NCBI GenBank assembly: GCA_002238825.1
Contig: MPNC01000015.1
Coordinates: 1 to 64,000 of the forward strand
Reading direction: 5' to 3'
Length of the DNA stretch: 64,000 nt
Source of the DNA: SAR202 cluster bacterium bin87
GTDB taxonomy: Bacteria > Chloroflexota > Dehalococcoidia > Lucifugimonadales > UBA3495
Position 1 is the first letter of the stretch. Every line of letters begins with the position of its first letter. Position numbers and translations under genes: made by a program. The notes beneath the pieces were generated by a model. It was given only the letters and a program-made list of their open reading frames with translations. It was not told the origin of the DNA and searched no databases. Positions 35,387-37,643 of this stretch are shown here, piece after piece.

Positions 35387-35634
35387 CCTTGGGTCGCGGC
35401 GGTCCCTACGGGGTCGTTCGCAGTCGGAACTTCGAGAATCAGTGGAACGATGCGATGAGAAGCGGCCGCATTCCCTCAGGTCGCGACTCTTCGTTGGAGC
35501 ACATTTGCTCGAGCGTGCTGGCCAGATCTCCTCGGATTGGTGCCACAAGGCGGGGCAAGCCGAGCAACTACCGAACGGTGCTGATTCCCAGGCTCACTTA
35601 CCGGATACCAGAGATAGTAGGATTGTTCAAGTAG
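35383..35634 (+). CDS. Small protein overlapping (ATGA) the Panacea gene; 3' end lies in the inverted repeat of the IscB element
   Basis: Translationally coupled 83-aa ORF MTLGRGGPYGVVRSRNFENQW...IPEIVGLFK. Confidence 0.45.
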   Translation: MTLGRGGPYGVVRSRNFENQWNDAMRSGRIPSGRDSSLEHICSSVLARSPRIGATRRGKPSNYRTVLIPRLTYRIPEIVGLFK

Positions 35635-35654
35635 GGGAAATCGGGAGCCATCGC

Positions 35655-35905
35655 TGACGGATTCCGTAATCCCCCAATGCGAGCAGTCTTATCAGCCTCA
35701 GCCGGTATATCCGGCTACGTCGCCGTCAGGCGAGCAATAGCACTCCGGGATCTTCATCCAGTCCCGGACTCCCGAGCCATCGGGATGAGAACTGCAAGGC
35801 CCAAGGACGAGCAAGCCAAAAGGCAAGCGCCGAAAGCCCGGACGTTCCAAGAACGTCCAACACCTGACGCAGACTTTGGCGAGGATGCCTCACACCCCAC
35901 AAGGA
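35655..35905 (+). ncRNA. Putative omegaRNA of IscB (boundaries approximate)
   Basis: Structured noncoding region directly 5' of iscB with GTCTTATCAGCCTCAGCCGGTATATCCGGCTACGTCGCCGTCAGGCGA... and GCAAGCCAAAAGGCAAGCGCCGAAAGCC stems. Confidence 0.75.
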
Positions 35906-35920
35906 GTTGACCTTACGGTC

Positions 35921-37330
35921 ATGACCTACACCAACTACCAACCCACACCCGTCTTCAGCTCCGACGGACAGCCCATCATGCCCTGCCACCCGGCTCGCGC
36001 ACGCAAGCTGCTCACCAAGGGCCGCGCCGTCCCGCACCACGTCCGCGGCATCTTCGGCATCCGCATTCTCGACCGCTCCCGCGCCGACTGCCAAGTCCAA
36101 GACGTAGCGCTCAACATCGACACCGGCTCCAGCACCACCGGCTTCGCCGTTGTGTCCGACGACGAGAAAGGCCAACGTACGGTACTCGCCGCCGTCGAAC
36201 TCACGCACCGCGCACGCGTCATCAAAGCCACCATGACCCGGCGCCGACAGCTTCGCCACACCCGACGCGGAAGACTACGCCACCGAGCGCCGCGTTTCAA
36301 CAACCGCCGTCGCAAACCAGGCACTCTCCCACCATCGGTGGACAGCCTGCGCACCGACACCATGCGCGTCGTCAACACCCTGACCAGCATGTACCCGATC
36401 AGCCACATCAGCATCGAGCACAAAAAGTTCGACACTCAGCTGATGGTGTACCCCGACATCAGGTCGGTCGAATACCAGCGCGGCACACTCTTCGGCTGGC
36501 AGATCCGCGCCTACATCCTCGAACGCGACCAGGGCCGCTGCGTCTATTGCCGCCGCTCGCGCGTACGCCTCGAACTGGACCACGTGCGACCACGCGCCAC
36601 CGGCTCCGACCGCGTCGATAACCTGGTCGCCTGTTGCCGCGAGTGCAACGTCAAGAAGGCCAACCAGCCCATCGAGCAGTTCCTCACCGACCAGCCGGAA
36701 CTCCTCAAGCGTATCCTCGAGCGACTGCAACGGTCCAACCTAGCCAGCGCGGCCCACATCAACGCCGCCCTGCCGGCCATCATCCGCGACCTCTGGCAAC
36801 TCGGCCTGCCACTGTCATCGACCGACGCCGCATCCGTTTCCTGGGCACGCCAGCAACTGAACGTACCCAAGACCCACTGCTACGACGCTGCGCTACAGGG
36901 CCACGACTTCACGAGCGTCGTAAGCCTGCCCTCGCGGGTGCTGGTGCTACGACCCAACAATGGCCGCTCCAAGCAGAAGGCCAACGTCGACCGCCACGGG
37001 ACACCCATAGGCCGGCCATTCCGGCAGCAGCAAGCCCTGCAACATCATCTCCGGCGTCACAATCCCGCCGTTGGTCACTCCGACCGTCGCCAGCGACACG
37101 GACCACAACTCATCAGCACCGGAGACACGGTGAGATTCACGCACCAAGACGTTTTACACACCGGCCGCGCCGTTATCAAGAGTGCAGGCCGCAGAGTGGC
37201 CATTCACGGCACGAAGCCCGAGATCAGCACCAAGATCGAACGATGCAGCCGACTGGCTCGCAACCCCAAATGGGTAATCCGCAGAGCAGCGCCCTCACAG
37301 CAGACCCGTGCGGAAGCAGCTACCAAATAA
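35921..37330 (+). CDS. iscB: IscB RNA-guided nuclease
   Basis: PLMP-like VFSSDGQPIMPCHPARARKLLTKGRA; RuvC-I LNIDTGSSTTGFAVV; Arg-rich bridge helix; HNH CVYCRRSRVRLELDHVRPRATGSDRVDNLVACCRECN; RuvC-III HCYDAALQGHDF. Confidence 0.93.
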   Translation: MTYTNYQPTPVFSSDGQPIMPCHPARARKLLTKGRAVPHHVRGIFGIRILDRSRADCQVQDVALNIDTGSSTTGFAVVSDDEKGQRTVLAAVELTHRARVIKATMTRRRQLRHTRRGRLRHRAPRFNNRRRKPGTLPPSVDSLRTDTMRVVNTLTSMYPISHISIEHKKFDTQLMVYPDIRSVEYQRGTLFGWQIRAYILERDQGRCVYCRRSRVRLELDHVRPRATGSDRVDNLVACCRECNVKKANQPIEQFLTDQPELLKRILERLQRSNLASAAHINAALPAIIRDLWQLGLPLSSTDAASVSWARQQLNVPKTHCYDAALQGHDFTSVVSLPSRVLVLRPNNGRSKQKANVDRHGTPIGRPFRQQQALQHHLRRHNPAVGHSDRRQRHGPQLISTGDTVRFTHQDVLHTGRAVIKSAGRRVAIHGTKPEISTKIERCSRLARNPKWVIRRAAPSQQTRAEAATK

Positions 37331-37379
37331 ATCCACCAAATGAGACCCACGCGACGTATCCCGTCACCGAAATCCCTAC

Positions 37380-37643
37380 TTGAACAATCCTACAAGTAAT
37401 AGCGGCTTCAAAACTCCAATCCAAGTGGAATTACCCAACGACGAACTGCGTGGCTACAGCGAGGCGCTGGGGCTGTACTTCTGCTGGCGGCAAGGACGGC
37501 TGGACTGGTACGACCCCAACGCCGCGGATTACATCCCAAGCCTGGAGTCCGAGCGTGAGCGCGCCAACACCGAACGGCAGTTGCGCCAGCAGGCGGAAGA
37601 AAGGGTACGCCAGTTGGAAGCGGAACTGCGTCAGCGCGGCTGA
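37380..37643 (+). pseudogene. C-terminal remnant resembling Uma2-family protein
   Basis: EALGLYFCWRQGRLDWYDPNAADYIPSLESERERANTERQLRQQAEERVRQLEAEL; N-terminus missing at IscB element edge. Confidence 0.6.

Follow-up and report, generated by a model that had tools for sequence, protein, structure and literature searches.

The closest described relatives of the locus analyzed here are the ISC or IscB-HEARO (OMEGA) elements of the IS200/605 group, which have in common with it the domain order of IscB, an upstream omegaRNA with the HEARO fold, a scaffold that appears to start at the left element end, and a guide that is expected from the left flank. In OgeuIscB, the scaffold opens at nucleotide 1 with a guide-adaptor hairpin, immediately 3' of the guide (PMC9640706). 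Few HEARO/IscB loci have a TnpA gene as neighbor (PMC9755519), which leaves room for other modes of movement. The family described here differs from these elements by 20-bp perfect terminal inverted repeats (TIRs) accompanied by target-site duplications (TSDs) of 6-8 nt (8-10 nt in a second notation, see below), by a genome that lacks Y1 TnpA, and by a guide-adaptor hairpin which consists of repeat sequence here and begins with GTCA... there.

Two other groups should be compared. OMEGA-type RNA-guided nucleases are also found within TIR and TSD elements in the Fanzor-carrying DNA transposons of eukaryotes (Mariner and others), and some Fanzor-encoding elements code for the nuclease only (PMC3627910, PMC10711439). 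Fanzors, however, are relatives of TnpB with a right-end guide and occur in eukaryotes and viruses, whereas the present element is bacterial and encodes an IscB with a predicted left-end guide. Bacterial MITE-like or non-autonomous TIR elements resemble it in having TIRs, duplications, several copies plus remnants and no transposase gene, and a second family in the genus, with the same outer repeat and a different interior, adds to this likeness. Unlike them, the element carries a selected nuclease gene and a guide RNA, and its repeat would also be part of an RNA helix. The literature searched, a set without the original ISC and OMEGA papers, contained no description of IscB in a TIR/TSD element.

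Organization of the IscB locus

The window (the whole stretch of DNA analyzed, 64,000 nt) belongs to a genome of 4.96 Mb in 67 contigs, whose genus-mates are named as Chloroflexota/Dehalococcoidia MAGs, and it contains one IscB/omegaRNA element of ~1.78 kb (Table 1). The evidence for the TIR element comes mostly from one MAG and its genus. The assignment as an IscB/omegaRNA locus, proposed in a preliminary description from the letters alone, is borne out by the NCBIfam model guided_IscB (NF040563, 304.9 bits, cut-off 175) and by the HEARO family (E=2.5e-5). The protein matched PF14239 (E=1.5e-52) and HNH in Pfam, solved IscB structures were among its PDB matches, and its domain order is canonical (RRXRR and HNH by Pfam; RuvC, PLMP, and TI motifs by eye). 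The open reading frame listed for iscB begins at 35876 (484 aa), compared with 469 aa for the intact IscB from the ATG at 35921. The closest IscB proteins shared 60-83% identity with it, those on plasmids and phages less than 60% only, and zero relatives were detected in IMG/VR by motifs of IscB or of the omegaRNA. Between this gene and that of a second, sister copy in the same genome, dN is 0.20 and dS 0.88 (dN/dS 0.23), which indicates that IscB is under purifying selection.

Table 1. Coordinates of the IscB element and its immediate flanks in the window
Feature	Position	Strand	Basis
Left terminal inverted repeat (IR), predicted to double as 5' strand of the omegaRNA guide-adaptor hairpin	35617..35636	+	
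Right terminal IR	37374..37393	-	sequence
omegaRNA (HEARO) scaffold, 3' end approximate	35617..35918	+	RF02033 match, fold, sister-copy HEARO start
GAGCAGTCTTAT, predicted 3' strand of the guide-adaptor hairpin	35681..35692	+	pairs 12/12 with IR nt 1-12 (4 G-U)
Left subterminal motif TGACGGATTCCGT, possible second transposase site	35655..35667	+	sequence
Right subterminal motif TGACGGGATACGT	37354..37366	-	sequence
iscB CDS, 469 aa, ATG start	35921..37330	+	PF14239, HNH, NF040563, dN/dS
Predicted omegaRNA guide CCGGATACCAGAGATA, host DNA directly 5' of the left IR	35601..35616	+	from its position
AAGTAATA, adjoining the right IR on its outer side; same 8 nt as directly precede the left IR at contig C38:124	37394..37401	+	
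N-truncated Uma2-like ORF, start within the right IR; host flank, outside the element	37380..37643	+	

The two ends are formed by GTAGGATTGTTCAAGTAGGG and its inverted counterpart, which are perfect over 20 bp, exactly as first described. A third copy is absent from the window at up to three mismatches, and 100 shuffles yielded zero matches, with none expected by chance. The similarity reported to continue inward from the IRs is present, but it lies at unequal distances from the two ends, the subterminal motif being ~38 nt from the left end and its counterpart ~27 nt from the right end; other IR copies have similar ACG-n-CGT motifs close to their ends. Both flanking ORFs are also as described earlier: the left one (35257-35634) terminates inside the left IR, and the right one, which had zero Pfam matches on its own, is N-truncated and has 65% identity over 83 aa to the tail of a full-length Uma2 protein encoded elsewhere in the genome (PF05685, E=2.7e-12). 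The claims that such repeats are atypical for IS200/605 elements and that no TnpA is present hold as well. In 20 canonical Chloroflexota IscB loci, all with HEARO matches that exceed the curated score, the left end found its best inverted counterpart at 5-8 mismatches, compared with 6-8 for a reversed-query null and with 0, 1, and 2 in three IR elements. GC skew and AT skew both change sign near the element (34000-37000), which may be due to the orientation of genes or to the doubtful left junction discussed below.

The inverted repeat as a mobile-element end

The IR is the terminus of a mobile element: eight copies are present in the genome (eight occurrences of the 20-mer at no more than one mismatch; zero for the reversed control), their outer flanks are unrelated, and they include a second complete element with a duplication. 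The interiors of the copies sort into left-end and right-end types, and in all copies the flanks diverge at the outer IR edge, so that the element is bounded exactly by the IRs. Solo ends are among the remnants. The second complete element (C38:1051-2859), whose IscB has 74% amino acid identity over its length, is flanked on both sides by TCAACCA, a 7-bp target duplication. In another genome (G003), four contigs end 54 nt into IR-type ends, and pairing of left and right ends gives the duplications TCAGTA (6 nt) and TACTACCA (8 nt). Overall, duplications of 7, 8, 6, and 8 nt were obtained for four end pairs, three of which are inferred pairings between contigs; because the repeat has G as its outer base and each duplication is followed by G (by C on the other side), they can also be written as 8-10 nt C...G around ends that start with TAGG. 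The doubt raised at the outset, that the IR might be found only here and show no sign of mobility, is thus removed by its recurrence with varied flanks and target duplications. When 85,488 species genomes were scanned for exact matches, the IR was found in four stretches, all from Chloroflexota/Dehalococcoidia MAGs, plus one match in Arenibacter that was judged to be due to chance; a single match in IMG/VR was also chance-like. A search for the empty site with one flank in 60 relatives found nothing.

At the left junction of the window copy, either two copies may have recombined or the assembler may have joined separate sequences. Its own flanks (..CAGAGATA and AAGTAATA..) have zero duplication in common, and the right flank equals the last 8 nt (10 with the common boundary bases) outside the left end at C38:124. 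Moreover, the first 127 nt of contig C38 are identical to the window, and C38 and the end of contig C20 have an overlap of exactly 55 nt, the signature of neighboring nodes of a k=55 assembly graph. At the true site of the window copy, the expected duplication would be CAAGTAATAG, of 8-10 nt.

An explanation that assigns the IRs to RNA would have the two IRs pair within the transcript, the right one thereby regulating the formation of the omegaRNA, mobility being secondary or lost. The perfect 20-nt complementarity of the two IRs and the place of the IR in an omegaRNA stem (see below) fit this idea, which is nevertheless improbable: the IRs are exact boundaries with target duplications and persist in copies that have lost IscB and the RNA fold, and they therefore look selected as DNA ends.

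Search for a transposase

TnpA was found neither near the element nor anywhere else in the genome; the search of all 4.96 Mb for Y1_Tnp (PF01797) gave zero matches, and the control search was positive in 5 of 14 known genomes. This bears on the possibility that a Y1 TnpA acting in trans mobilizes the locus, which would then be an ordinary IS200/605-type ISC with an incidental IR. Such a reading could appeal to IscB and the HEARO RNA as the classic ISC partners and to the small share of such loci at which TnpA is adjacent (PMC9755519). It has to contend with the missing Y1_Tnp, with the lack of the IR in canonical relatives, and with the target duplications, and is quite improbable. HUH transposition is not known to leave target duplications.

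The combination of TIRs and TSDs points to a DDE-type transposase acting in trans as the most likely mover. A transposase with these ends was not found; none is encoded in the IR elements seen, and part of the repeat family falls in unassembled contigs. Several candidates close to IR ends were rejected. An ISNCY-like transposase near an IR end (G003:C39) has copies elsewhere with their own ends and no IR, and is not considered as the autonomous enzyme; istA/istB of IS21 near IR-like sequences (G000:C43, JAPPJA010000459) represent a separate insertion sequence or an insertion target. Fragments of large serine recombinases at C45 were ruled out as the mover by duplication length, since large serine recombinases are not known to leave target duplications of the 6-8 nt seen here.

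The omegaRNA fold and the predicted guide

The Rfam model RF02033 (HEARO) matched at full model length in the window copy (35631-35893, E=2.5e-5) with 34 bits, below the gathering score of 83; this match begins 14 nt inside the IR and contains mismatched pairs, whereas in the sister copy it begins exactly at IR base 1. Thermodynamic folding of 35617-35893 gave -112.2 kcal/mol (z -5.3). In this fold, IR nt 1-12 form a helix with GAGCAGTCTTAT (nt 65-76), and IR nt 18-20 are base-paired too. The pairing probability of IR nt 1-12 was 0.88-1.0 with the upstream flank included, and the 12/12 pairing was matched by only 3 of 2000 shuffles. The sister copy has the same fold (-129.4 kcal/mol, z -6.7), although its outer pairs are less certain (0.5-0.66) and its IR pairing was matched by 97 of 2000 shuffles. 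Four base pairs of the common structure have changed on both sides between the two IscB copies and are still paired, i.e., they are compensatory. In IR elements without intact IscB, the fold is absent (z -0.1 for G004:C290 and 0.4 for C45:5575) and the IR is retained, in agreement with a function in RNA that depends on IscB and a function in DNA that does not.

The start of the omegaRNA was set at 35617 and not at 35631, the thermodynamic fold and the sister-copy HEARO start being preferred over the model match of the window copy. Folding and homology accordingly show the left IR as the predicted 5' strand of the guide-adaptor hairpin, with a scaffold that would begin at the first base of the element. 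Since the IR is constant between insertions, folds into this hairpin, and is where the sister HEARO match starts, the guide should be the host DNA immediately upstream of the IR, as in canonical IscB. The preliminary description was right about the contact between the left repeat and the 5' end of the omegaRNA, but the RNA begins with the repeat and does not merely adjoin it. Its suggestion that the IR contributes guide sequence is not supported, in view of the hairpin and of the sister copy; the covariance model, which it had named as the arbiter, places the guide outside the IR in the sister copy, but starts inside the IR when the window copy is taken alone. If the left junction is an assembly join, the predicted guide CCGGATACCAGAGATA may belong to another copy.

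The stronger form of that suggestion, that the IR itself is the guide and directs IscB to the ends of its own element, could draw on the window-copy match, which would leave some IR sequence upstream of the scaffold. It is very improbable, as the fold of both IscB copies places the IR in the guide-adaptor hairpin, the sister match begins at IR base 1, and such a guide would match both ends of every copy. As for a host repeat or chance inverted repeat without any mobile element, the solo ends might be so explained, but varied flanks, target duplications, two complete IscB copies, and a chance expectation of zero make this scarcely credible.

Related elements and remnants

Other IR-bearing sequences were observed in the genus. 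In one element (L026, G004:C290, 1985-3094), which has the same IRs, most of IscB is replaced by a retropepsin-like ORF (PF00077, E=1.1e-5); a remnant of the IscB TI domain is left close to the right end (E=1e-4), and the start of the omegaRNA has decayed. Another region (L010, G000:C45, 4292-8197) is a nest of IR remnants, including a right-end fragment and a left-end fragment; it also has a diverged left end followed by an ORF, an XRE-type HTH gene, and a serine-recombinase-like N-terminus. A second end family has the same outer IR and the interior GCGGC...ATTACGAAA..CGTAATC, and occurs as solo ends or contig ends (contig ends of G003 C56, C60, C2, and C33; G001:C126:11763; L034; G000:C45:4311); it may belong to an autonomous element. 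IR-like sequences (ATAGGAWTGTTCRAGTAGGC) at G000 C39:2955-2974 and C43:48077-48096 lie within a duplicated chromosomal segment and are possibly ancient solo ends.

Proposed mechanism and implications

Taken as a whole, the locus is likely a non-autonomous transposon of IscB and omegaRNA with TIRs and TSDs, most likely mobilized by a DDE enzyme in trans, in which the left IR serves as a hairpin strand and the flank as guide. The ~1.78-kb element would be moved via its terminal IRs with target-site duplication by a transposase supplied from elsewhere, and every insertion would reprogram the omegaRNA to its landing site. RNA-guided cleavage with a TAM is the predicted activity of this IscB. IscB could then cut the empty site, whether this results from excision or is present on a sister or incoming chromosome, and such cleavage would favor retention or homing; the occupied site would stay uncut because the element end displaces the TAM. 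It also appears somewhat probable that this IscB lineage has left the Y1 world and become cargo of a TIR/TSD element, the 5' strand of its hairpin having been rewritten as a terminal repeat recognized by the transposase.

If true, one sequence would act both as a DNA end and as an RNA stem, which would keep the guide boundary precisely where the element inserts, under a transposition chemistry that is new. For the movement of IscB, a TIR/TSD family offers a concrete alternative; with it, IscB would have passed from one transposase type to another, in parallel to the TnpB-type nucleases (Fanzors). The family also provides testable predictions on the position of the guide and on the coupling of end recognition to RNA folding, and it serves as a warning that the guide at such loci must come from outside the IR.
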